A stretch of DNA of 64,000 bases. Source: Bacteroidota bacterium (lineage in GTDB: Bacteria > Bacteroidota > Bacteroidia > Chitinophagales > Chitinophagaceae). Every line of letters begins with the position of its first letter. The stretch's first letter is position 1. Positions 306 through 37,338 of the stretch are shown here, one piece after another. The notes below the pieces were generated by a model, which was not told the DNA's origin, ran no database searches, and saw only the letters and a list, made by a program, of their open reading frames with translations. A program made the position numbers and the translations under genes. Location of the stretch: the NCBI GenBank assembly GCA_029555415.1, contig JAKPSI010000064.1, forward strand, positions 1-64,000, in the 5' to 3' direction.

Positions 306-881
306 ATGAACCTTGAAGAGGAGAAGCATTTATTACAACAGATTAAAACTGACCCTGAGAAGTTTGGGGTCCTTTTTGATGCCTGTTATCAACCTATTTT
401 TAAATATATTTTAAGACGGGTTGCTGATTATGATATTTCAAGAGACATTGCGGCGGAATGTTTTCTTAAAGCCTTTTTGAATATTCAATCATTTACCTGG
501 AAAGGCATTTCCCTTTCATCCTGGCTCTACCGGATTGCTACAAATGAAATCAATTACTATTTCCGTCAACATAAGCAATATACAAGTTCGCTTGAACAGC
601 TTAAAAATCGTGGCGAGTTTGATATGATGGACAGCCCGGAATATGTCAACGAAAAACAATTACTTGAAAAAGAACTGGAACAGCATAATGAATTTAAACG
701 GGTACAAAAGGGTTTGACACAACTGGATATCAAATACCAGGAAGTTCTTTCCCTCCGTTATTTTGAAAAAAAATCAATACTGGAAATTGCAGAAATACTG
801 AATAAAAATGAAGGAACGGTTAAATCGCTATTATCCAGGGGTACCGGTAAACTAAGAAAATTAATTATGAATGCAACCTGA
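306..881 (+). CDS. ECF-type RNA polymerase sigma factor
   Basis: This 191-residue protein has the length and layout of an extracytoplasmic-function sigma factor. Residues about 20-95 form region 2, with the core-binding and -10 recognition part including SLSSWLYRIATNEINYYFR. Residues about 130-185 form region 4, a helix-turn-helix containing LSLRYFEKKSILEIAEIL and NEGTVKSLLSRG. It would direct RNA polymerase to a small set of promoters in response to an envelope or surface signal. The next gene, 35 bp downstream, encodes a membrane protein and is the natural candidate for its regulator, but that pairing is inferred. The gene is AT-rich compared with the region beyond 5400. Confidence 0.9.
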   Translation: MNLEEEKHLLQQIKTDPEKFGVLFDACYQPIFKYILRRVADYDISRDIAAECFLKAFLNIQSFTWKGISLSSWLYRIATNEINYYFRQHKQYTSSLEQLKNRGEFDMMDSPEYVNEKQLLEKELEQHNEFKRVQKGLTQLDIKYQEVLSLRYFEKKSILEIAEILNKNEGTVKSLLSRGTGKLRKLIMNAT

Positions 882-916
882 ACAGGAAAATTACATTATA
901 GTAATAAACCTCTACT

Positions 917-1384
917 ATGGAAAATAAAAAATTTGAAGAACAGTTGGAAAATCTACAAACACCACAAGTGAACGACATCCGTCATCAGCAAAGTTTAAAA
1001 GTCAATTTGCTGAATGCCCGGAAATCTTCCCGTATTGGTATTGTGTTTATTACCCTTCCTTGTCTGTTCCTGTTTGGTGTATTTATGAAATATTTTCTGG
1101 GTGTTCAATTCCCTGTTTTCACTGCTTTGGAAGATGCTATGGCCAATCTGGATAAAACACCATTTTTGAAATGGATCTCCCCGGTATTATTAGTAGGGTT
1201 ACCTTTGCTGGCTATTATCATTAACACACTTGCCATCACTCATTTTTACAGGGATAAGCAACGGAAAGAGTTATTAATAACAATAAAATACAGGTTATTG
1301 AATATTTCGATACTTATAATCAGTATTTGTATTGTGGCTATTTTTATTTTATTTGCTATTGGTGAATACATGCACCATGGCTGA
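917..1384 (+). CDS. three-helix membrane protein, possible sigma-factor partner
   Basis: The 155-residue product starts with about 38 charged, soluble residues. Three hydrophobic segments follow at roughly residues 39-60, 90-110 and 125-150. I do not recognise a named family. Its position 35 bp after an ECF sigma gene in the same direction, with a short cytoplasmic N-terminus ahead of membrane helices, resembles the layout of anti-sigma factors. No FecR or zinc-anti-sigma motif is present, so this role is a guess. The gene is AT-rich. Confidence 0.7.
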   Translation: MENKKFEEQLENLQTPQVNDIRHQQSLKVNLLNARKSSRIGIVFITLPCLFLFGVFMKYFLGVQFPVFTALEDAMANLDKTPFLKWISPVLLVGLPLLAIIINTLAITHFYRDKQRKELLITIKYRLLNISILIISICIVAIFILFAIGEYMHHG

Positions 1385-1431
1385 AAATACAAGATGATTA
1401 CTTGAGTATCCCCGGTTTTGAATTCTTTAAA

Positions 1432-1449
1432 AATGATAATTTTATCATT
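1432..1449. terminator. AT-only hairpin after the sigma operon
   Basis: AATGATAA and TTATCATT form a perfect 8-bp inverted repeat with a 2-nt loop, about 50 bp behind the membrane-protein stop codon. It has no GC clamp or T-run, so termination activity is uncertain. Confidence 0.25.
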
Positions 1450-1528
1450 GAAATAAAGGATATATAAAAACCAACATAAACTCTTCATATGAAATAAAGA
1501 GCCAAAATGTTGAGAATTTTATTTGCAA

Positions 1529-1754
1529 GCCGCTAACATTGGTATTGCCAATAGTGGAGCTGGACATTGGAGCAATCAGCAGTGGTAATTATGCTGTACT
1601 GCGGTTTGGGGCTCGATGAATCCCGGCACTGTGGCCGGGACAGGCGCCGCCCGGCTTTAGTTCTTAATCTTGAACTTTATCAGAAAGCCAGGCAGCAGTT
1701 CCGGCGGACGGAATTCTAATTCCCCACCATCGGCAATACCTGCCCGTTAGCAGC
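1529..1754. repeat. attC-like inverted-repeat site A
   Basis: This is the first of four related sites. The outer arms GCCGCTAAC (1529-1537) and GTTAGCAGC (1746-1754) pair over 9 bp. A 3-nt spacer on the left and a 5-nt spacer on the right are unpaired. The inner arms, starting GGTATTGCC at 1541 and ending GGCAATACC at 1740, pair over about 19 bp with three mismatches. All three would be G-T pairs on the bottom strand. Internal blocks shared with site B include GGAGCAATC, a GGCTCGAYGAAT-like block and CAGCAGTTCCGG. A CCCGGC..GCCGGG-type hairpin sits near 1622-1640. The architecture matches integron attC sites (R arm, spacer, L stem). The rest of 1385-1987 holds a small hairpin and the promoter of the next gene. 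Confidence 0.7.
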
Positions 1755-1833
1755 AACCGTATGAACCGACAGTGCAACCATTGACGAGAGTAAAATTAGA
1801 CACTGAATGACTGTCACCACTGCCGTTTTTCAA

Positions 1834-1862
1834 TTTGACATCGGGCCAAATTTTTAACTTTG
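1834..1862 (+). promoter_or_regulatory. Bacteroidota-type promoter for the VOC gene
   Basis: TTTG at 1834-1837 and TAACTTTG at 1855-1862 match the Bacteroidota -33 (TTTG) and -7 (TAnnTTTG) elements. They are separated by 17 nt, slightly shorter than usual. The promoter lies between site A and the gene, so the gene appears to carry its own promoter. Confidence 0.5.
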
Positions 1863-1987
1863 GTGCTTCTATTTTTTTAACAGTTGCGGGGGACAGTAAT
1901 TCTTGTTTTCCGGGCTTTGTGAACAGCAGGGCGACAATTCACACGACAGCAACTAACGATTAGAATAAAATCATAAACTTGATAACA

Positions 1988-2512
1988 ATGAAACGAGCCG
2001 TATTTTTAACTTTTGCATTTGTGGCAACTTTTTGTCTTGGGTTCTCATTTAAGACATTAACGACAACAACAAACGACAGCAATAAAATGAAACGAGTAAC
2101 AGGTATTGGGGGCATTTTTTTCAAATGTAAAGACCCGAAAAAAGTAAAAGAATGGTATCAGACACATCTTGGATTAAACACAAACGAATATGGAAGCGTA
2201 TTTGAGTGGTACCAAGGTGCTGACAGCACAAAAAAAGGATTTACACAATGGAGTCCGTTCAACGACAAGACTAAATACTTTGAACCTTCTACAAAAGAAT
2301 TTATGATAAACTATCGAGTAGAGAATTTGGAACCACTTGTTGAAGAATTGAAAAAGGAAGGCGTAACCATTGTGGACAAAATTGAAACTGTTGAATATGG
2401 AAAATTTGTCCATATCCTTGACGTGGAAGGAAATAAAATTGAACTTTGGGAAGCTAACGACATTGAATTTGAAAAATTGGGCAAACAAATTGGTGCTGAA
2501 ACCACAAAATAA
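1988..2512 (+). CDS. secreted VOC (glyoxalase/bleomycin-resistance fold) protein
   Basis: The protein has 174 residues. Residues 1-23 form a signal peptide (MKRAVFLTFAFVATFCLG). A vicinal-oxygen-chelate domain occupies about residues 35-155, recognisable from GIFFKCKDPKKVKEWYQTHL, YRVENLEPLVEELKKEGV and DVEGNKIELWE. VOC proteins are metal-dependent lyases, dioxygenases or binding proteins; the substrate here cannot be read. The ATG at 1988 is chosen because it gives a clean signal peptide; an in-frame TTG lies 9 bp upstream. Site A precedes it and site B begins 17 bp after its stop, making it the first cassette-like unit. Confidence 0.85.
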   Translation: MKRAVFLTFAFVATFCLGFSFKTLTTTTNDSNKMKRVTGIGGIFFKCKDPKKVKEWYQTHLGLNTNEYGSVFEWYQGADSTKKGFTQWSPFNDKTKYFEPSTKEFMINYRVENLEPLVEELKKEGVTIVDKIETVEYGKFVHILDVEGNKIELWEANDIEFEKLGKQIGAETTK

Positions 2513-2528
2513 CCTACCAAAACGGCAT

Positions 2529-2727
2529 GCTGTTAATAAGGGTATTGCTGCAAGCGGGACTTGAGATTGGAGCAATCGGCTTTATCATGCTATCAGCAGC
2601 AGTTTCGGCTCGACGAATAAAGCCAGGCAAAAGTTCTTAACTTCAAATTCAAATTAAAACCGGGCAGCAGTTCCGGGCGGAACCTTATAAAATATCCCAC
2701 CTGCAGCAATACCTGTCCGTTGTAGGC
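2529..2727. repeat. attC-like inverted-repeat site B
   Basis: The inner arms at 2541-2559 (GGTATTGCTGCAAGCGGGA) and 2695-2713 pair over 19 bp with only two mismatches. Both are bottom-strand G-T pairs. Where site A has GGTATTGCC, this site has GGTATTGCTGC with a matching change on the other arm. The left outer arm GCTGTTAA (2529-2536) is consensus-like; the right outer arm, GTTGTAGGC (2719-2727), is diverged. Internal blocks GGAGCAATCGGC, GGCTCGACGAAT and GGGCAGCAGTTCCGGGCGG are shared with site A. The site starts 17 bp after the VOC stop and ends 9 bp before the next ATG. Confidence 0.7.
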
Positions 2728-2735
2728 AATGCCAA

Positions 2736-3314
2736 ATGATAAAAGCATTTAGAATGAAATATATTTTTATTTATCTTCTTGTATTTATTTGCAGTTTAAT
2801 TTCTAGCCTTTGCTATGGACAAAATAAAATTAATTTGATATATAACATAACCGACATCAACAAACCTAGCAATGACACTTTTAACATAAAAAAAGTTAGT
2901 ATTGTAAACCATTCAGACTCTATAATTATCATACTAAAAAACAGGAATAAAATTACCTTTCCCCCAGGTAAAATCTGGGGTTATCAGGATTCCCACAATA
3001 CTATTTATCGCTATTTTGATGGTGATTTTTATTATGTTAGACAACTTGATACCATGATTATTTATTCGCGTGTAGGTGGTAAAAGCAATAAATATTATTT
3101 TAGCGAAGGGGGAAATGGAAAAATACTGAGTTTAGGTACGAAAAGTTTGAAAAAAGAATTTGCAAACAATGCTTGTCTTTTAAATAAGATTGCCAATGAA
3201 TATAAATGGTATCAGGATTACTCAGCATACAACAAAAAGACAAAGTCTTACAGAATTGTAGAGTTTTTTAAATATTGCCTGGACAACATTCAAGTAGCCA
3301 GGAAGAAGAGCTAA
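2736..3314 (+). CDS. secreted protein of unknown function (cassette gene)
   Basis: I do not recognise this 192-residue protein. It begins with a signal peptide (about residues 7-29, FIYLLVFICSLISSLCYGQ) and is therefore exported. The remainder is rich in Ile, Asn, Lys and Tyr, with beta-type stretches such as SDSIIIILKNRNKITFP and YRYFDGDFYYVRQLDTMII. Its base composition is the most AT-rich in the window, clearly different from the S41 gene that follows, which suggests separate origin. An alternative ATG at 2754 also leaves a good signal peptide. No promoter is obvious in the 9 bp between site B and the start, so transcription may come from within or before site B. Confidence 0.7.
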   Translation: MIKAFRMKYIFIYLLVFICSLISSLCYGQNKINLIYNITDINKPSNDTFNIKKVSIVNHSDSIIIILKNRNKITFPPGKIWGYQDSHNTIYRYFDGDFYYVRQLDTMIIYSRVGGKSNKYYFSEGGNGKILSLGTKSLKKEFANNACLLNKIANEYKWYQDYSAYNKKTKSYRIVEFFKYCLDNIQVARKKS

Positions 3315-3324
3315 AAAGGCACTT

Positions 3325-3520
3325 CCGCCAACAAGGTATTGGCAAAAGCGGGGCAGACTCAAGGGTAATCGGCAGCAACTCCTTAATCTGCATTAGTTGT
3401 AGGCTGACCGTTTCTTATTAATTTTTCTTTGTAATTTCAGCATCGCACACATTAAGGGCGACATTGATTGGGCAGACGTACAAAAAAACCCACCTTCGCC
3501 AATACCCCGACGTTAACTGC
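3325..3520. repeat. attC-like inverted-repeat site C
   Basis: The inner arms at 3335-3353 (starting GGTATTGGC) and 3488-3506 (ending GCCAATACC) pair over 19 bp with four mismatches, three of them bottom-strand G-T pairs. The base changed relative to site A (GGC instead of GCC) is compensated on the opposite arm. The outer arms are GCCAAC (3327-3332) and GTTAAC (3512-3517), pairing with two bottom-strand G-T wobbles. The central part is diverged from sites A and B. The site begins about 10 bp after the preceding stop. The remaining 3521-3634 interval is AT-rich leader for the S41 gene. Confidence 0.65.
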
Positions 3521-3634
3521 TCAGCCAGTCAAAATCCTCTGAAAACCTCAAAACAGACGGCAATGATGTTCCAGTCATATTTTGAATCGTTAATTCATAA
3601 ACTTTACGCTTACTTTGAACATGAGAAATGAAAA

Positions 3635-5101
3635 ATGAAAAAATATTTACTTCTCCATATATCTATATTACTGTTTTCAGCAAATTCCAAGTCGCAAACA
3701 CTCACTTCAGAAAACCTGCATAAAGACTTCCAGGTACTGAAAAGTGTTTTATTGAATTATCACCCCGGGCTTTACAGGTTTCAGGACAGCCTGACCGTTG
3801 CCGGTAATTTTGCAAAACTTGAACAACAATTGACACGGGACCTGACGCTTGCTGAGGCTTATCTGATCTTTTCCAAATTCACAGCAAGTATTAAATGCGG
3901 ACATACCTTTTGCAGCTTTTATAATCAAAGCGGTCAGACAAAAGACAGCCTTTTCAACAAAAGCGATAAAGTCCCTTTTACGTTTTTCCTGTTTGACAAA
4001 AGGATGTTTATTGAAAAAAATGTTTCAGAAAGTGATGCGTTAGTTCAGGGCACTGAAGTTCTAGAAATCAATAATATACCTGTCACTGCAATTATTGACA
4101 CTTTAATACAATACATTAAGGGTGATGGCGGTAATAATTTAAAAAGACTGAATGATCTAAACCTTTCCGGCTTAGGCAAATTTGAAGCATTTGATATTTT
4201 TCATTCACTATTATTCCCACCCAAAAACAATCTGTATTCTTTAAAAATCAAACAACCCGGCACAACCGATCTTAAGGAAGCCAGTGTAAAAGCCATAAGC
4301 CGGAATGAACGTTTTGCATTAATGGAAAACAAGTATGGTAAACAGCCGGCGACTTTATACGATCTATGGAGTTTTAAGATCCTGAACAGTGAAACCGCCT
4401 ATCTGAAAATAGGCACATTTGTAACCAATCAATTAACCATTGACTGGAAGAAATATATTACTAACGCTTTTGACGAACTGAACGAAAAGAATATCCAGAA
4501 CTTAATCATTGACATCCGTGGTAATGAAGGAGGCGATGATGAAGTAAATCTTGTACTGGGGAATAAATTAGCGAAAAGGCAAATTGAATTTCCGGCATTC
4601 AGGGAGTTACTACGCTATGAAGATGTTTCCGATGAATATCGCCCCTATCTGAATACATGGGATAAAAGTTTCTATAACCGGAAAGGGCAATTAATAAAAA
4701 AAGAGAACGGGTTTTATACCTGGAAAAGAGACAGAGGGAACTCAATTATCAAGCAGAACAATAAAGCATTCCGTGGAAACACCTACCTGCTTGTTGACGC
4801 AGCCAATAGTTCAGCCACATTCTTCCTTACAGCAGGGTTACAACAAAACAAAATCGCGACAGTGATCGGCTCTGAAACTGGCGGGAACCGAAAAGGTACA
4901 AATGGCGGACAACTTTTCTTTTTACGGCTGCCTCATTCTAAAATAGAAATCGATATCCCGTTAATTGGTTACTATCCTTTAACAGAGCAACCTGACAAGG
5001 GCATAAAACCAGACATTGAAATTCCATTAACAATTTCAGATCTCTTATCCAACAAAGACAGGGTTTTGGAAAAAACACTGGAGCTAATTAAGAATAAGTA
5101 G
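3635..5101 (+). CDS. secreted S41-family (C-terminal-processing/tricorn-like) peptidase
   Basis: The 488-residue protein has an N-terminal signal peptide (residues 1-20, ending NSKSQ). A helical N-terminal domain is followed by a PDZ-like stretch around residues 120-160 (VQGTEVLEINNIPVTAI). The S41 catalytic domain comes next, with NLIIDIRGNEGGDD near residue 290 and the nucleophile region DAANSSATFFL (Ser392/393). ETGGNRKGTNGG and GIKPDIEIP complete the family signature. It should cleave peptides or proteins in the periplasm or outside. The gene sits alone between sites C and D in the same direction as the other cassette genes. GC content is higher than that of its neighbour at 2736. Confidence 0.88.
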   Translation: MKKYLLLHISILLFSANSKSQTLTSENLHKDFQVLKSVLLNYHPGLYRFQDSLTVAGNFAKLEQQLTRDLTLAEAYLIFSKFTASIKCGHTFCSFYNQSGQTKDSLFNKSDKVPFTFFLFDKRMFIEKNVSESDALVQGTEVLEINNIPVTAIIDTLIQYIKGDGGNNLKRLNDLNLSGLGKFEAFDIFHSLLFPPKNNLYSLKIKQPGTTDLKEASVKAISRNERFALMENKYGKQPATLYDLWSFKILNSETAYLKIGTFVTNQLTIDWKKYITNAFDELNEKNIQNLIIDIRGNEGGDDEVNLVLGNKLAKRQIEFPAFRELLRYEDVSDEYRPYLNTWDKSFYNRKGQLIKKENGFYTWKRDRGNSIIKQNNKAFRGNTYLLVDAANSSATFFLTAGLQQNKIATVIGSETGGNRKGTNGGQLFFLRLPHSKIEIDIPLIGYYPLTEQPDKGIKPDIEIPLTISDLLSNKDRVLEKTLELIKNK

Positions 5102-6962: not shown

Positions 6963-7751
6963 ATGGAAGTACATCATCACACACATGCTGACCAAGGGAA
7001 GAAAAACTGGAAATCCTATTTCTGGGAATTCCTCATGTTATTCCTTGCCGTTTTCTGTGGATTTTTAGCTGAATACCAGTTAGAACATATGATCGAAAGA
7101 GAAAGGGAAAAAGAACTGGCTGCCAGTTTTTATAATGAACTCAAGGGAGATTCACTATCCATCCGCACCACGATTGAAAACAGGAAACGGAAAGATGCAG
7201 CTTTCACCTTTTTGAAATCCTATTTCCGTGACAGCAGCATGTCCCAATGCTCCAAAGACTTCTCCATCAATTTCTTTTATGCTTTCGCGACGTACAGCCC
7301 ATCCATCTTCGATCCCAATGATGCGGTCCTCGATCAGCTGAAGAGTTCGGGTTCCCTCCGTTATTTTAAAGACCACGATCTCCAGGAACTGACCGGCAGG
7401 TTATCCGTTGCCATCTCCAGGCTGAAAAGCAGGAATGAAATGGAATGGACCTATGTACACGAGATCATCAATCCCTTCTTCATCAAACACAATGATCAAA
7501 GCTGGACTGACAGGATCGACCGGGACAGCAGTGTTTTCACCGTTGTTGCATTGCAGCAGTATGAACGCTCAGCGGAACAGATCCCGTTCCATTTTCAGAA
7601 TACAGATGCATTTGACAGGACTGAAGCCGTCAACATCATGGGGTTATACCAGCTTACTTTCAGGGGAACATTGCGTAAGCAATATCTCGACTATGAGGTG
7701 CTCAATGCACAATTACTGGAATTATTAAGAAAGGAATATAAATTGAAGTAA
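6963..7751 (+). CDS. His-rich N-terminus, single-helix membrane protein (paralogue 1)
   Basis: The 262-residue protein starts MEVHHHTHA, followed by a Lys/Trp-rich patch (KKNWKSYFWEF) and one strongly hydrophobic helix at about residues 22-42. After the helix comes a charged, coiled-coil-prone segment (HMIEREREKELAASFYNEL) and a mostly helical soluble domain to residue 262. No catalytic motif is visible. A paralogue at 12306 shares almost the whole first 45 residues but a diverged C-terminal domain. The N-terminus could bind metal through its histidines. The topology suggests a short cytoplasmic tail and a periplasmic domain, which is inferred. The function is unknown. Confidence 0.8.
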   Translation: MEVHHHTHADQGKKNWKSYFWEFLMLFLAVFCGFLAEYQLEHMIEREREKELAASFYNELKGDSLSIRTTIENRKRKDAAFTFLKSYFRDSSMSQCSKDFSINFFYAFATYSPSIFDPNDAVLDQLKSSGSLRYFKDHDLQELTGRLSVAISRLKSRNEMEWTYVHEIINPFFIKHNDQSWTDRIDRDSSVFTVVALQQYERSAEQIPFHFQNTDAFDRTEAVNIMGLYQLTFRGTLRKQYLDYEVLNAQLLELLRKEYKLK

Positions 7752-12305: not shown

Positions 12306-13070
12306 ATGGAAGTACATCACCACACACACGCAGGTCACGGAAAGAAAAGCTGGAAAGCCTATTTCTGGGAATTTTTGATGTTGTTCCTGGCCGTTTTCTG
12401 CGGCTTTTTTGCAGAATACCAGCTGGAACATAAGATAGACAGGGACAAAGAGCAGGAATATATCCATTCCATGATCGAAGACGCCAGAACAGATACCGCA
12501 AACATCCACCGGGCGATCGACTTCAATGTAGCCCGTGTATATAAACTAGACTCCTTAGCCATGGTCTGTTTCAATTATGGCTTATCTGAAAAGGATGATC
12601 CCATACTTAACAAGTTGTACCGTTCCTGCCTACGTCATCCGGATTTTGTAAGTCCGACAGAAAGGACCATGACCCAGTTGAAAAACTCAGGTGGTATGCG
12701 CTTGTTGCGAAATAAGACCGCCGCAGACAGTATCCTGGGCTATGACGACTTCGCTAAAAAACTGATCGACCAGCAGGGATGGTGCGAGGAAATGCTCCGG
12801 AAACTGGTGGACCAGTGCATGCCGATCTTCAATTTTAAATATTCATCCAGCCTGGATCCCGTTACTTTAAAGATCAGCATACCTGCATCATACGATTCCG
12901 CAAGACTGATCAAAAATGATAAAGCTTTACTGATCGAATTAGGGAACCGTGCGATCATGTATAAAAATGTGGTGCTCTTTTACCTCCTTTTATTACATGA
13001 AGGAGAGAAGCATGCAGTGAATCTGATGCAGACCTTACGCGAGACTTATCATATAAAGGTCAGTGAATAA
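12306..13070 (+). CDS. His-rich N-terminus, single-helix membrane protein (paralogue 2)
   Basis: The 254-residue protein begins MEVHHHTHAGHGKK and is nearly identical to the protein at 6963 through the Trp-rich patch and the hydrophobic helix (YFWEFLMLFLAVFCGF, then AEYQLEH). Beyond residue 45 the two share only general character: a charged coiled-coil start and a helical soluble domain with little direct identity. This one contains RTMTQLKNSGGMRLLRN, comparable to LDQLKSSGSLRYFKD in the other. That suggests the families are homologous throughout but the soluble domain evolves fast. The function is unknown. Confidence 0.8.
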   Translation: MEVHHHTHAGHGKKSWKAYFWEFLMLFLAVFCGFFAEYQLEHKIDRDKEQEYIHSMIEDARTDTANIHRAIDFNVARVYKLDSLAMVCFNYGLSEKDDPILNKLYRSCLRHPDFVSPTERTMTQLKNSGGMRLLRNKTAADSILGYDDFAKKLIDQQGWCEEMLRKLVDQCMPIFNFKYSSSLDPVTLKISIPASYDSARLIKNDKALLIELGNRAIMYKNVVLFYLLLLHEGEKHAVNLMQTLRETYHIKVSE

Positions 13071-14660: not shown

Positions 14661-15398
14661 ATGCGGTTCCTCCTTCTTGCCTTATCCTTCATCTTTGTAA
14701 TGAATCCTGTTTTGGGTCAGGAGAAATCCGCCAAACTGAAGATCGCCCATCTCTCCGGCGACTTCTACATCTATACCACTTACAATACGTACGAGAACAG
14801 TCAGGTGCCCGCCAACGGAATGTACCTTGTCACGGATCAGGGTGTTGCTTTATTCGATACACCGTGGGACAGTACACAGTTCCAGCCGCTGCTGGACAGT
14901 ATCAAAACGAAGCATGGAAGATCTGTCGTGTTATGTTTTGCTACGCACTGGCATACGGATAAAACGGCCGGACTGGAATACTACCGGCAACTGGGCATCC
15001 CTACCTACACCACGACCATGACGGATTCACTCAGCAAACTGAACGGGAAGAAAAGGGCGGAATTCCTGATGACGAAGGATACGGTCTTTCATCTCGGCCA
15101 TTATACTTTTGAAACCTATTACCCCGGGGAAGGACATACAGCCGACAATATCGTGATCTGGTTCAGCAGGGAGAAGATCCTCTATGGTGGCTGTCTGATC
15201 AAAGGCGCGGATGATGAAACGCTGGGCTACCTGGGCGATGCGAATGAAAAAGCGTACGCGACCACCTTAAAAAATGTCCGCAACAGATTCAAAGACCCGA
15301 AAGTCATTGTGATCGCACACAGCGACTGGCACAATATCAATTCCCTGAAGCATTCCATTGAAATGGCAGAGGCCCTGAAAAAAGAAGAGCAGCACTGA
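14661..15398 (+). CDS. subclass B1 metallo-beta-lactamase
   Basis: The 245-residue precursor has a signal peptide (residues 1-19, ending VLGQ) and the full subclass B1 zinc site. HWHTD at residues 96-100 supplies His96, His98 and Asp100; YPGEGHTADN gives His159; LYGGCLIKG gives Cys178; and IAHSDW gives His220. The Cys ligand and the GGCLIK context distinguish B1 enzymes from other MBL-fold hydrolases and resemble BlaB/MUS-type enzymes of Flavobacteriia. It is expected to hydrolyse beta-lactams, including carbapenems, in the periplasm; activity is inferred. No mobile element flanks it, so it looks like an intrinsic chromosomal gene. Confidence 0.9.
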   Translation: MRFLLLALSFIFVMNPVLGQEKSAKLKIAHLSGDFYIYTTYNTYENSQVPANGMYLVTDQGVALFDTPWDSTQFQPLLDSIKTKHGRSVVLCFATHWHTDKTAGLEYYRQLGIPTYTTTMTDSLSKLNGKKRAEFLMTKDTVFHLGHYTFETYYPGEGHTADNIVIWFSREKILYGGCLIKGADDETLGYLGDANEKAYATTLKNVRNRFKDPKVIVIAHSDWHNINSLKHSIEMAEALKKEEQH

Positions 15399-20243: not shown

Positions 20244-23200
20244 TTATAGTGCTTTCATTGCTTCGATCCGCTCCCAGTGCAGCTGAATGGCCGTATTCGC
20301 GAGGCCGAGGAATTCAGTGCCTTTCTCAGGATTGTTGCTCTTGATCGTCGTGAAGCGGTTCTCATGATACAGGAACTCTTCAACCGGAACAGAAGGCGGT
20401 TTGCAGTCGAGTGTAAACCTTTGTCCTTTTTCTTTGAGCGGATTGTAACGGAAGATCGGCCAGTAACCTGTCTTCACCGCCAGACTCTGCTGCTCTAATC
20501 CATGGCACATGTCGTAACCGTGAGCGATACAGTGACTGTACGCGATGATGATGGAAGGTCCGGGATAAGCTTCCGCTTCCAGGATGGTCTTCAGGGCGTG
20601 TACATCATTGGCACCCATCGCGATCTGTGCTACGTAAGCGCTGCCATGGGCAACTGCCTGCATCGCCAGGTCCTTCTTACCGGTCGTTTTACCATTCACC
20701 GCGAATTTGGCGCTGGCTCCGATCGGAGATGCTTTTGATTTTTGTCCGCCCGTATTACTGTACACCTCTGTATCCATCACCAGAATGTTGACATTCTCAC
20801 CGGTGCTGAGCACGTGGTCAAGACCGCTGAAGCCGATATCATATGCCCAGCCGTCACCACCCACGATCCAAACGGATTTCTTCTCCAGGAATTCAGCGAT
20901 CTGATACAACCTGTAAGATTCATTCGTGCGGATCTCGCGGAGGCGTTTCTTCAGTTCATTTACATTCTTGCGTTGTTTGGTCACTTCGGCTTCATCCACT
21001 TCCGCGTTCAGCAGCAGTGCATCCGCCAGTTCAGCTCCCACTTCTTCGCGCATGCTCATCAGCAGGCGCAGGGCCATATCGCGTTTCTTGTCGGTAGCGA
21101 GTTTGATACCAAGACCGAATTCCGCGTTGTCCTCGAAGAGTGAGTTGGCCCATGCCGGTCCGTGACCTTCATGATCCGTGGTCCACGGTGTAGTCGGCAG
21201 GTTTGCACCGAAGATGGAAGAGCAACCCGTAGCGTTGGCCACGATCATACGATCGCCGAACAGCTGGGTCAGCAGTTTCAGGTACGGTGTTTCACCGCAA
21301 CCACTGCAGGCGCCGGAGAATTCGAACAGAGGTTCGAGCAGCTGAGAACCTTTCACTGTTGCTTTGTTCACGCGGCTGCGGTCGATATCAGGCAGTTCCA
21401 GGAAGTAATCCCAGTTCTTCTTTTCTGTTTCTTTCAGCGGCAGCACATCTTTCATGTCGATGGCTTTGTGACCCGCTTCAGTTTTACTTTCGATCGGGCA
21501 AACTTCCGTACATAGTTTGCAACCGGTACAGTCTTCAACAGCGACCTGCAGCGTGTACGCTTCTTTATCCTTGATGAATTCCTTACCGATCGGATCGGTG
21601 AATTTGAAGAAGGAAGGCGCATCTGCCAGCCAGTCGCGGTCGTATACTTTTACGCGGATCGCAGCGTGAGGACAAACGAAATAACATTTACCGCACTGAG
21701 AGCAGAGTTCAGGATCCCATACAGGCACCTGTTCCGCGATATTGCGTTTTTCCCATTTAGTGGTACCCATCGGATACACACCATCAACAGGGAATGCGCT
21801 CACCGGCAGTTCATCCCCTTCGCCGGCGATGATGCGGGCCAGTACATTCTGTACGAAGTCAGGCGCGTTACCGGAGATAGCGGGTTCGATCTCACGATCA
21901 CCTACGATGAAGTTGGTGTAATCCACTTTATGCAGGTTCTCAAGGGTCTGATCCACGGCGCGGTAGTTCTTCTGCACCACTTCTTCCCCTTTACGTCCGT
22001 ATGTTTTCTTGATCGCGCTCTTGATATACTGAATAGCGAGGTCGCGGGCCATTACATTACTGATCGCGAAGAAGCAGGTCTGCAGGATACCGTTGATGCG
22101 GGAACCCATGCCGGTTTCTTTTGCCACTTTGGAGGCATTGATCACATAGAACTTGAGTTCTTTGTGGATGATCTCATCCTGGATCTTCTTCGGCAGCTGA
22201 TCCCATACTTCCTCCTGCGCATAAGGTGTATTGAGCAGGAAGGTGGCACCTTTCTCCGCGTCTTTCAATACGTCATATTTCTTGAGATAGTTGAAGTGGT
22301 GACAAGCGATGAAGTTGGCCGAATTCACCAGGTATGTGGAGCGGATCGGATGATCGCTGAAACGCAGGTGGGAAACGGTCAGGGAGCCTGATTTTTTGGA
22401 GTCGTACACGAAATAACCCTGTACGAAATTATCGGTCACTTCACCGATGATCTTGATCGTATTCTTGTTCGCACTTACGGTACCATCCGCACCCAGACCG
22501 AAGAACAGGCCACGGAACAGGTGTTGCTGTTCGAGTGAGAAGTTCTTATCATAATCAAGACTGGTATGTGTTACATCATCTTCGATACCGATAGTGAAAC
22601 TGTTCTTGGGTTCGGCTTTCAGCAGTTCATCGTAGATGGCTTTCACCATACCGGCGTTGAATTCTTTGGAAGCGAGACCATAACGGCCACCGATCACTTT
22701 GGGTGCAACACCCTGCCATGCGGTGTGGATCGCGCTGATCACGTCCATATATAATGGTTCGCCGATCGCACCGGGTTCTTTACAACGGTCGAGTACCGCG
22801 ATATTCTTCACGGTAGCAGGTAAAGCACCCAGGAAATGTTTCACGGAGAAAGGACGGAACAGGTGAACATTCAGATAACCCACTTTCTCATCGCGCGCGT
22901 TGAGGTAGTCGGTCACTTCATGTACAGGACCCACGCCGGAACCCATGATGATGATCACGCGTTCAGCCTGCGGGTGTCCGTAGTACTGGAACAATTTATA
23001 CTGACGACCGGTCATGGCTGCGAATTCATTCATCGCATTGGTCACGATATCCGGTACGTTCTGATAATAAGTATTACCGGCTTCACGGCTCTGGAAGAAC
23101 ACATCGGGGTTCTGTGCGGTACCGCGAACCATGGGATGTTCGGGGTTCATGGCACGACGGCGGTGTTTGCTCACTTCTTCTTCATCGATCATGGAGCGTA

Positions 23201-23819
23201 TCTCATCGTCTGACAGTACTTCCACTTTCGCCAGTTCATGTGATGTGCGGAAACCATCGAAGATGTTCAGGAACGGGATCCTTGCTTTGAGCGTGGAAGA
23301 GGTGGCGATGAGCGCCATGTCATGTGCTTCCTGCGGATTGTTACCGAAGAGCATGGACCAACCGGTAGAGCGGGTTGCCATTACATCACTGTGATCTCCG
23401 AAGATGGAGAGGGCGTGTGTGGCAAGTGCGCGTGCCGCGATATGAAAAACGGCGGGTGTCAGTTCCCCTGCGATCTTGTACATGTTGGGGATCATCAGTA
23501 ACAATCCCTGAGAACAGGTAAAGGTGGATGCGAGCGCACCACCCTGCAATGCACCGTGAATGGCACCAGCTGCACCGGCTTCACTTTGCATTTCGATCAC
23601 TTTGGGGACTTCCCCGTAAATATTTTTGATGTCATTACTGCTCCATTCATCTGCCCATTCTCCCATGGCGGAAGAAGGTGTGATCGGGTAAATGGCGCAA
23701 ACCTCGCTGGTCTTGTAGGCAACGTACGCCGCAGCTTCGTTCCCATCCATGATCGCGTTGGTCACTTCTTTTTGCCCCTCGGTTTTACCCGGAGCGGCTT
23801 GTTTGGTAATTGTTTCCAT
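20244..23819 (-). CDS. nifJ: pyruvate:ferredoxin (flavodoxin) oxidoreductase
   Basis: The 1191-residue single-chain enzyme oxidises pyruvate with CoA to acetyl-CoA and CO2, passing electrons to ferredoxin or flavodoxin. Domains run in the standard order. The N-terminal pyrimidine-binding domain contains YITPSSAMGEWADEW-like sequence near residues 40-55. A CoA-binding and gamma domain follow, then a two-cluster ferredoxin domain with CSQCGKCYFVCP and CTGCKLCTEVCP near residues 690-770. The C-terminal TPP domain has CSGCGETPY, GCSSIFGANLPTTPW and GDGWAYDIGFSGLDHVLS. Length and motifs are complete. It is monocistronic with its own terminator. Presence suggests growth at low oxygen or a reductive role for low-potential ferredoxin. 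Confidence 0.97.
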   Translation of the reverse strand: METITKQAAPGKTEGQKEVTNAIMDGNEAAAYVAYKTSEVCAIYPITPSSAMGEWADEWSSNDIKNIYGEVPKVIEMQSEAGAAGAIHGALQGGALASTFTCSQGLLLMIPNMYKIAGELTPAVFHIAARALATHALSIFGDHSDVMATRSTGWSMLFGNNPQEAHDMALIATSSTLKARIPFLNIFDGFRTSHELAKVEVLSDDEIRSMIDEEEVSKHRRRAMNPEHPMVRGTAQNPDVFFQSREAGNTYYQNVPDIVTNAMNEFAAMTGRQYKLFQYYGHPQAERVIIIMGSGVGPVHEVTDYLNARDEKVGYLNVHLFRPFSVKHFLGALPATVKNIAVLDRCKEPGAIGEPLYMDVISAIHTAWQGVAPKVIGGRYGLASKEFNAGMVKAIYDELLKAEPKNSFTIGIEDDVTHTSLDYDKNFSLEQQHLFRGLFFGLGADGTVSANKNTIKIIGEVTDNFVQGYFVYDSKKSGSLTVSHLRFSDHPIRSTYLVNSANFIACHHFNYLKKYDVLKDAEKGATFLLNTPYAQEEVWDQLPKKIQDEIIHKELKFYVINASKVAKETGMGSRINGILQTCFFAISNVMARDLAIQYIKSAIKKTYGRKGEEVVQKNYRAVDQTLENLHKVDYTNFIVGDREIEPAISGNAPDFVQNVLARIIAGEGDELPVSAFPVDGVYPMGTTKWEKRNIAEQVPVWDPELCSQCGKCYFVCPHAAIRVKVYDRDWLADAPSFFKFTDPIGKEFIKDKEAYTLQVAVEDCTGCKLCTEVCPIESKTEAGHKAIDMKDVLPLKETEKKNWDYFLELPDIDRSRVNKATVKGSQLLEPLFEFSGACSGCGETPYLKLLTQLFGDRMIVANATGCSSIFGANLPTTPWTTDHEGHGPAWANSLFEDNAEFGLGIKLATDKKRDMALRLLMSMREEVGAELADALLLNAEVDEAEVTKQRKNVNELKKRLREIRTNESYRLYQIAEFLEKKSVWIVGGDGWAYDIGFSGLDHVLSTGENVNILVMDTEVYSNTGGQKSKASPIGASAKFAVNGKTTGKKDLAMQAVAHGSAYVAQIAMGANDVHALKTILEAEAYPGPSIIIAYSHCIAHGYDMCHGLEQQSLAVKTGYWPIFRYNPLKEKGQRFTLDCKPPSVPVEEFLYHENRFTTIKSNNPEKGTEFLGLANTAIQLHWERIEAMKAL

Positions 23820-31751: not shown

Positions 31752-32396
31752 TCATTCACCAGCCACATAAGGATTGTTAGCCTTCTCGAAACCGATGGTG
31801 GTAGCGGGACCATGACCGGAATATACTTTCGTCGCGTCCGGTAACGGATAAAGCTGTGTGCGGATACTCTGTTCCAGCGTATTGAAATCTCCTCCGGGCA
31901 GGTCGGTCCGCCCAACGCTTCCCCTGAAAAGGACATCTCCGCTGACGAGGAAACCATCAGCCGAACTGTAAAAACTGACGCTGCCGGGAGAATGGCCGGG
32001 TGTAAAACGGACCTCCAGTTCATCTTCCCCCAGACGGATGTTTTTTCCGGGTTCGAGGTAAACCAGGGGACCATTATAATTGTCAAAAGGCAGTTGCCAT
32101 CTTTCACCGGAAATAGGGGCAAAATCGAGTACCTGCTTTTCGAGGGGGTGCAGGTGCAGGTCCAGTCCCCAGGTATCGTGGACGAATTGGTTGCCGAAAA
32201 CATGGTCGAGGTGGCAGTGGGTATTCAGCAGCAGCAGTGGTTTCAGGCCATTTTCAACGACAAAAGCCTGCAATTTGGCTTTTTCTTCGGGGAAATAACA
32301 ACCCGGGTCGATAATGCAGCACTGTTTCAGCCCGTTATAGAGGATGTAGGTATTCTCCTGCACCGGGTTGAAAGTAAAAGGGACAACGGTCAACAT
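31752..32396 (-). CDS. MBL-fold hydrolase, glyoxalase II-like
   Basis: The 214-residue cytoplasmic protein has the metallo-beta-lactamase-fold motif THCHLDH (about residues 59-65), TPGHSPGSVSFY with the next zinc His, SGDVLFRGSVGRTD with the bridging Asp, and YSGHGP with the last His. The pattern matches glyoxalase II-related thioesterases. It starts just after a convergent flippase stop (no gap) and is divergent from the gene at 32509. Confidence 0.9.
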   Translation of the reverse strand: MLTVVPFTFNPVQENTYILYNGLKQCCIIDPGCYFPEEKAKLQAFVVENGLKPLLLLNTHCHLDHVFGNQFVHDTWGLDLHLHPLEKQVLDFAPISGERWQLPFDNYNGPLVYLEPGKNIRLGEDELEVRFTPGHSPGSVSFYSSADGFLVSGDVLFRGSVGRTDLPGGDFNTLEQSIRTQLYPLPDATKVYSGHGPATTIGFEKANNPYVAGE

Positions 32397-36030: not shown

Positions 36031-37338
36031 TCACCACTGCAGTTTTCTGGAGAAATACATGATGATCGCCAGTGCAGCAAAGAGGCCGAAGCTGCCCATC
36101 AGCAAAGCGTAGTCCTGCAGCTGGATGATCGTGAAAATATAGCCGTAGACCACGGCCAGCACGAAACTGATGAAGGTGGCCAGTTTGCCCGACCGCATGA
36201 TCCCTCCTACGAACCAGGCGATGAGGCCGATGGTGGCGACCGATGCGATGAGATAAGCCAAATTGTAACCGGTATATTCCGAGATCGATAACAATAGCGT
36301 ATAGAACAGTACGAGTGCAAGTCCGGCCAGTCCGTACTGCACCAAATGCAGCGGTCTTTTATAGATCGTTTCAATGAGGAAGAACGCGGCAAAGGTCAGG
36401 ATGATGCACAGCAGCGCGTATTTAACCGAACGCTGTGTTTTATCATAGCTGTCAACCGGGATCACCAGATCCGCGCCCAGTACGGAACCGGAGAGATCGA
36501 TATACCGGTTCTGCCAGATCTGCGGCACACTGCGGTTCATGAATTTCCAGGAGGCGGTGAAGCCACTGTCCTTCACTTCACGTGTATCCGGCAGCTTCAC
36601 ACCCGTGAAACTCGGGTTGGGCCAGTTGGAGCGCATGGTGAGTTTGTTCTCCCGCGCTGTGGCGGCAAATACCAGTCGCTGTGAACCATTCAAAGAGAAT
36701 TTGACAGAGCCGCTCAGATCTTTGGCAGCGATCTCCGGATTGAGCGGTACCGGTGCTTCCAGGATATCCGGTGCGCCCTGCACATCCGAAGGGCGTGGCT
36801 GGAAGACGATATTACTATCGCCCCAGTGCAGGAAAACATCTTCGTTGATACCACGCAGGTTATCGGTCACATTCATGACGATACGCGCGCGGTTCCAGAG
36901 GATATTTTCAGGAGCGATACCGAGTGTGGTCCATTTAATGGGACTGAAGCGGATATCAATATTGATATCGCTGCGGTACACGGCCACCTGATAGATGCCG
37001 CGGTGGCGGTTCTCCGGCACTACGCTGGACTGGATATCGGAGTGATCGGGCATGAACCAGGCTTCGCGGGTGACCCAGACGCGGGAGCCGTTCGCGCCAT
37101 CGATCTGTTCGTTGTAGGGCAGCAACAGCAGCGGACCGGTAACGGTTTGTTTACCCGCCCACTTGCCGCTGATATCAGCGATGGCCTCATTCTGCCGGCC
37201 TTCGCGCTCGCGCACGAGTTCCATGATCAGATTGGTGGGCACCCAGAGTATGAGCGCGAGGATGAAAATGAAAATGCCTTTGATGAAGAGACGTCCTTTG
37301 CCGAAGATTGTGTTCAGCAGACCAGTTGATTGTTCCAT
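36031..37338 (-). CDS. creD: inner-membrane protein CreD family
   Basis: The 435-residue protein has one N-terminal helix (GIFIFILALILWVPTNLIME), a large beta-rich periplasmic part with GKWAGKQTVTGPLLLLPY and SPIKWTTLGIAPENILWN, and five to six helices in the last 130 residues (from VKYALLCIILTFAAFFLIE). This matches CreD/inner-membrane-stability proteins. It is the last gene of a minus-strand cluster with four small membrane proteins and a winged-helix regulator, and its role there is probably response to envelope stress. Confidence 0.92.
   Translation of the reverse strand: MEQSTGLLNTIFGKGRLFIKGIFIFILALILWVPTNLIMELVREREGRQNEAIADISGKWAGKQTVTGPLLLLPYNEQIDGANGSRVWVTREAWFMPDHSDIQSSVVPENRHRGIYQVAVYRSDINIDIRFSPIKWTTLGIAPENILWNRARIVMNVTDNLRGINEDVFLHWGDSNIVFQPRPSDVQGAPDILEAPVPLNPEIAAKDLSGSVKFSLNGSQRLVFAATARENKLTMRSNWPNPSFTGVKLPDTREVKDSGFTASWKFMNRSVPQIWQNRYIDLSGSVLGADLVIPVDSYDKTQRSVKYALLCIILTFAAFFLIETIYKRPLHLVQYGLAGLALVLFYTLLLSISEYTGYNLAYLIASVATIGLIAWFVGGIMRSGKLATFISFVLAVVYGYIFTIIQLQDYALLMGSFGLFAALAIIMYFSRKLQW

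Follow-up and report, generated by a model that had tools for sequence, protein, structure and literature searches.

A chromosomal subclass B1 metallo-beta-lactamase gene in a lineage-variable stretch of a Chitinophagaceae genome

Subclass B1 metallo-beta-lactamases (MBLs) hold a hydroxide at a di-zinc site, where it attacks the beta-lactam carbonyl. Bacteroidota are known as rich in B1 genes, and the B1-4 group of Berglund et al. has hosts among Bacteroidetes and Firmicutes (PMC5637372). Of 21 novel B1 genes tested, 18 gave imipenem hydrolysis in E. coli, among them each of the three listed from B1-4; some Bacteroidota B1 genes, all of them belonging to group B1-3, were Carba NP negative in E. 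coli (PMC5637372). CAM-2, found in a Pyrinomonadaceae MAG, hydrolyses carbapenems (PMC9241868). In IMP-1/IMP-6, as in evolved BcII, the residue at position 262 tunes which substrates are preferred (PMC4212336), and the second shell of NDM-1 includes Lys121 and Ser262 (PMC7443720).

Here we describe a B1 gene in a 64,000-nucleotide stretch of Chitinophagaceae DNA (the window). The host assembly comprises 139 contigs and is 98% complete. Some same-family genomes have B1 loci equal in length, identity and score to those on contigs named Chitinophagaceae bacterium UBA3961 and Parafilimonas (L004/L042 and L007/L044), which points to a Chitinophagaceae host. The gene is chromosomal, since proS and other core genes share its contig. 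An earlier note, made from the sequence alone, had reported a complete subclass B1 metallo-beta-lactamase with all six zinc-site residues. The open reading frame proved exactly as described, running intact from ATG to TGA on the plus strand and encoding 245 aa, and H96, H98, D100, H159, C178 and H220 stand at the protein positions given there. The features of the gene are as follows.

14661 to 15398, plus strand: subclass B1 metallo-beta-lactamase gene, 245 aa (open reading frame; NF033088 and NF012146; phmmer to BlaB-1; AlphaFold model against 1m2x).
14661 to 14720, plus strand: residues 1-20, a likely signal peptide lacking a lipobox Cys, with VLG/Q or Q/E as the approximate cleavage site (sequence by eye).
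14946 to 14960, plus strand: H96-W97-H98-T99-D100, the HxHxD motif (BBL H116, W117, H118, D120; alignment to reference B1 enzymes; H96, H98 and D100 invariant in 19 homologues).
15135 to 15137, plus strand: H159 (BBL H196), Zn1 ligand (alignment, homologue conservation).
15192 to 15194, plus strand: C178 (BBL C221), Zn2 ligand (alignment, homologue conservation).
15315 to 15320, plus strand: A219-H220 (BBL 262-H263), Zn2 ligand with a non-Gly neighbour, clade signature (alignment, tree mapping).

In standard class B numbering the six ligands are H116, H118, D120, H196, C221 and H263, and their columns align with those of BlaB-1, IND-7, GIM-1, IMP-1, NDM-1 and VIM-1. All six are kept in 68 of 68 aligned B1 sequences (this protein and 67 others) and show no variation across 19 homologues. 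Lys224 is also retained, and position 233 is Tyr in the alignment, like in BlaB and IND. With this ligand set, Zn1 would be bound by H116, H118 and H196 and Zn2 by D120, C221 and H263, and a zinc-bound hydroxide held at the site would attack the beta-lactam carbonyl. The N-terminus, MRFLLLALSFIFVMNPVLGQ, judged by eye from the sequence, is signal-peptide-like and has no lipobox. This region is variable yet hydrophobic across the 19 homologues, with Q20 retained in more than 90%, and the AlphaFold model has low confidence over the likely signal-peptide residues. We infer that the product is periplasmic, exported by the putative signal peptide.

With the NCBIfam equivalog model for subclass B1 (NF033088, cut-off 200) the protein scores 235.5 bits, and the BlaB/IND/MUS model (NF012146) is narrowly passed with 277.1 bits against 270; chance similarity would give far lower scores. 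Pfam places the protein at superfamily level only. The top NCBIfam score is that of bla-B1-FLAV (NF000450; 318.1 bits, cut-off 450), followed by the CAM model (NF033895; 291 bits, cut-off 535), and further named-family models likewise stay below their cut-offs (251 versus 400 and 230 versus 500 bits). Among the bla-B1-FLAV, CAM, PEDO-3, BlaB, MUS, TUS and SPI models, no named allele family's own cut-off is reached. A phmmer search matches BlaB-1 with an E-value of 8.5e-64; of the solved structures, BlaB-1, the Pontibacter korlensis MBL (6XFR) and IND-7 come closest. An AlphaFold2 model from 18 homologues (mean pLDDT 87.6, pTM 0.84) predicts the MBL alpha-beta/beta-alpha fold, resembling solved B1 enzymes. 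In a Foldseek search with this model, B1 enzymes take all the top places, led by 1m2x (rmsd 1.4; TM 0.95 by target length).

Phylogeny, proposed in the earlier note as a check, places the gene inside B1, with BlaB-1 and IND-7. In our maximum-likelihood tree of 68 rows, whose bootstrap is not fully settled and whose inner order in the BlaB/IND/FLAV part is open, the gene lies inside an 18-row clade (support 99/99) with L040 as its neighbour (100/99). BlaB-1, IND-7 and enzymes of Flavobacterium type join this clade in a wider group (96/94), which a 100/99 branch divides from GIM-1, IMP-1, NDM-1, VIM-1 and other Bacteroidota genes. CAM, JOHN, PEDO-3, MUS, TUS and SPI are not rows of the tree, and those of them that have a family model are compared through its score. 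The placement fits B1-4, with its BlaB, IND, JOHN, PEDO-3 and CAM relatives. The nearest relatives, at 64-73% identity, are from Chitinophagaceae (Lacibacter luteus, Lacibacter cauensis and a Ferruginibacter MAG) and from other Bacteroidota-labelled contigs. Curated models, tree, fold and homologues support B1 membership, a chromosomal setting and divergence, the note having called the enzyme possibly divergent.

Comparison of the surroundings with those in relatives gives two segments.

1 to 20099, no strand: non-syntenic, lineage-variable stretch carrying the B1 gene, with base 1, the start of the contig, as the left limit of the comparison (comparison with relatives).
23982 to 50116, no strand: syntenic core segment from proS on, used as control when the gene contexts were compared (colinear genes in two relatives, G022 and G033).

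The core segment is colinear in G022 and G033, and two of its genes are so in G016; in all three genomes the B1 gene sits elsewhere relative to it. Around the B1 gene, no neighbours are in common with G016, G033 or G029, and only RibD_C- and VOC-type genes with G022. Left of proS, the window has nothing in common with eight relatives, except a pyruvate:ferredoxin oxidoreductase (PFOR) in one, and those eight have this flank in common with each other. The relatives show no conserved gene neighbourhood or regulator around the B1 gene: ArsR and AHSA1-type genes near it recur at one locus only (L028), and DUF1801 and RibD_C-type genes in a few. A search for a dedicated promoter or terminator at the gene gave nothing above chance. 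The B1 gene is therefore located in a roughly 20-kb lineage-variable stretch. Gain, loss or rearrangement may have produced this context, the contig starting at base 1 and the sampled genomes all coming from other genera. No gain event with boundaries is demonstrable, owing to that start and to the decay of synteny from one genus to another. Nor is a clean insertion beside proS: what comes after proS in relatives, namely genes for an FAD/NAD-binding oxidoreductase and for an mfd-like protein, is on other contigs of this genome.

Several other genes of the window were recorded. The PFOR-type protein (20247-23819, minus strand, 1191 aa) adjoins proS, is full-length in one of four relatives tested, also lies beside proS in G020, and is itself patchy. 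A second MBL-fold protein (31755-32396, minus strand; Pfam Lactamase_B, 93.8 bits) is an ordinary MBL-superfamily hydrolase, syntenic in relatives and not B1. CreD has been linked to beta-lactamase regulation in some Gammaproteobacteria; the CreD-family inner membrane protein gene here (36034-37338, minus strand; 448.7 bits) lies inside the conserved core segment, about 21 kb from the B1 gene, and probably has no connection with that gene. Genes for a sigma factor, a glyoxalase-like protein and an S41 peptidase at 306-5098 have a third-position GC (GC3) of 0.30-0.38, where most of the window has 0.5-0.7, and could possibly be foreign DNA. Two proteins without a Pfam family (6963-7748 and 12306-13067) have a common N-terminal stretch (MEVHHHTHA..GKK.WK.YFWEFLMLFLAVFCGF.AEYQLEH) and are apparently paralogues.

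The earlier note had also described the gene as having no insertion sequence, integron or other resistance gene adjacent. This agrees with a Pfam scan of 28 window proteins, which hit neither mobility families nor further resistance families. The gene has no flanking repeats of element size, and its GC3 (0.63) is in line with that of its neighbours. Matches in a plasmid collection all stay below 60% identity (GIM-1 comes first, with 34.5%), and phage and viral-contig collections gave no match to the protein. A mobile element around the B1 gene was rejected as far as these tests reach.

An intact B1-type gene is present in 13 of 35 sampled same-family genomes, and a member of the clade in three of the 35 (G016, G022 and G033); the sample holds no same-genus genome, and the patchiness is that of the family level. 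One further same-family genome has a broken B1-type gene. Two loci show decay. At G028:C22:86713-87353 (L012/L024) a B1 gene lies in two overlapping pieces in different frames, one with an in-frame stop. At G033:C3:284650-285177 (L023/L088) the first 180 residues of a second B1 gene lie about 20 kb from the intact copy, a case of duplication and decay. The family is under purifying selection, because close relative pairs have dN of 0.08-0.12 against dS of 0.84-2.1; for the gene itself dS is saturated, and these figures are those of the relative pairs.

Taken as a whole, our data are best explained, with high confidence, by an intact chromosomal gene for a periplasmic B1 enzyme of Chitinophagaceae, which belongs to the Bacteroidota/Firmicutes B1-4 group and is an accessory rather than a fixed core gene. 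Such a gene would probably have been gained, lost or relocated repeatedly within the family. The alternative that survives best, although we consider it doubtful, is that of a truly intrinsic, vertically inherited lineage gene, whose unshared neighbours reflect ordinary synteny decay between genera. It accords with the core genes on the chromosomal contig, with the native GC3 and nearby absence of mobility genes, and with closest relatives mostly from the same family or phylum. However, the proS-side segment has stayed syntenic in the very genomes in which the B1 gene lies elsewhere, and the flank left of proS that relatives have in common is missing from the window. The distribution also speaks against vertical inheritance, with so few family members carrying an intact B1-type gene and fewer still one of the clade. 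The earlier note's "intrinsic" is therefore supported in part: the gene is chromosomal and adjoined by no mobility gene, but its occurrence is patchy and its neighbourhood essentially unshared. The evidence does not establish a gene fixed in the lineage, and the word should be weakened to "chromosomal accessory gene". The gene encodes an ordinary, well-supported B1 metallo-beta-lactamase.

The protein is likely to hydrolyse beta-lactams, because tested relatives (18 of the 21 novel genes, the listed B1-4 ones among them, and CAM-2) hydrolyse carbapenems. Its substrates would most likely be penicillins, cephalosporins and carbapenems, and it may protect the host against environmental beta-lactams. 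The substrate range may nevertheless differ, because at positions 117, 261 and 262 the clade has residues unlike those of most B1 enzymes. Gly262 is absent from all 18 clade members, which have Ala, Ser or Thr there, and present in 47 of 50 sequences outside the clade. Pro261 is likewise absent from 18 of 18, and Trp117 is found in 17. On the tree, the loss of Gly262 amounts to four changes, which fit one at the clade base and one each in IMP-1, NDM-1 and 6XFR. This raises the tentative possibility that, in this unnamed Chitinophagaceae B1 family, the replacement of Pro261-Gly262 by an aliphatic residue and Ala/Ser/Thr, together with Trp117, gives a substrate profile distinct from that of BlaB and IND, in which case the position-262 switch known from IMP-1/IMP-6 and NDM would have occurred in nature once more, independently.

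An alternative in which the B1 fold serves mainly a non-beta-lactam substrate or a narrowed beta-lactam range, mirrored in W117 and the non-Gly262 residue, seems improbable. That the whole clade has lost Pro261-Gly262 and acquired Trp117 would suit it, as would the tuning of substrate range by position 262 in IMP and BcII (PMC4212336). However, all ligands and K224 are retained, and Ser262 also occurs in IMP-1 and NDM-1, and Lys121 in NDM-1, both broad-spectrum lactamases (PMC7443720). A recently acquired mobile resistance gene, which patchy distribution, variable context and the mobilised relative CAM-1 from the same group (PMC9241868) might suggest, is very hard to reconcile with native GC3 and with surroundings devoid of mobility genes and element-size flanking repeats, nor is there a close plasmid or phage match.

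The gene does extend the known reservoir, as the earlier note put it, to the extent of one more member; Bacteroidota were already rich in such genes (PMC5637372). With it, the B1 reservoir of Bacteroidota gains a clade that is unnamed and sparsely distributed and that falls in the same group as CAM, an enzyme seen in the clinic (PMC9241868); the picture of B1 evolution and resistance spread stays as it was. The clade is a natural comparison for the effect of position 262 on substrate range.

Compared with described enzymes, the protein has the same ligands as bla-B1-FLAV (NF000450) and matches it over nearly its full length. A relative that passes this model (L075) is about 49-50% identical to our protein, which itself falls below the cut-off. 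CAM-1 and CAM-2 have the same B1 group and ligands (PMC9241868). In P. aeruginosa, CAM-1 lies together with ISCR14 in an ICE (PMC9241868), whereas the gene described here has no such context. The clade is unsupported as the source of CAM-1: relatives score 272-335 bits with the blaCAM model, whose cut-off is 535. BlaB (1m2x) and IND (3l6n) are 41% and 35% identical to the protein and have Tyr233, a short L3 loop, Asn70 and Ala69 in common with it. In contrast, they have S117, R121 and A/P261-G262 where it has W117, K121 and I261-A262. The Pontibacter korlensis enzyme (6XFR) also has W117, K121 and a non-Gly262 residue, yet it is 34% identical and lies in a different part of the tree, so these common residues are probably convergent.
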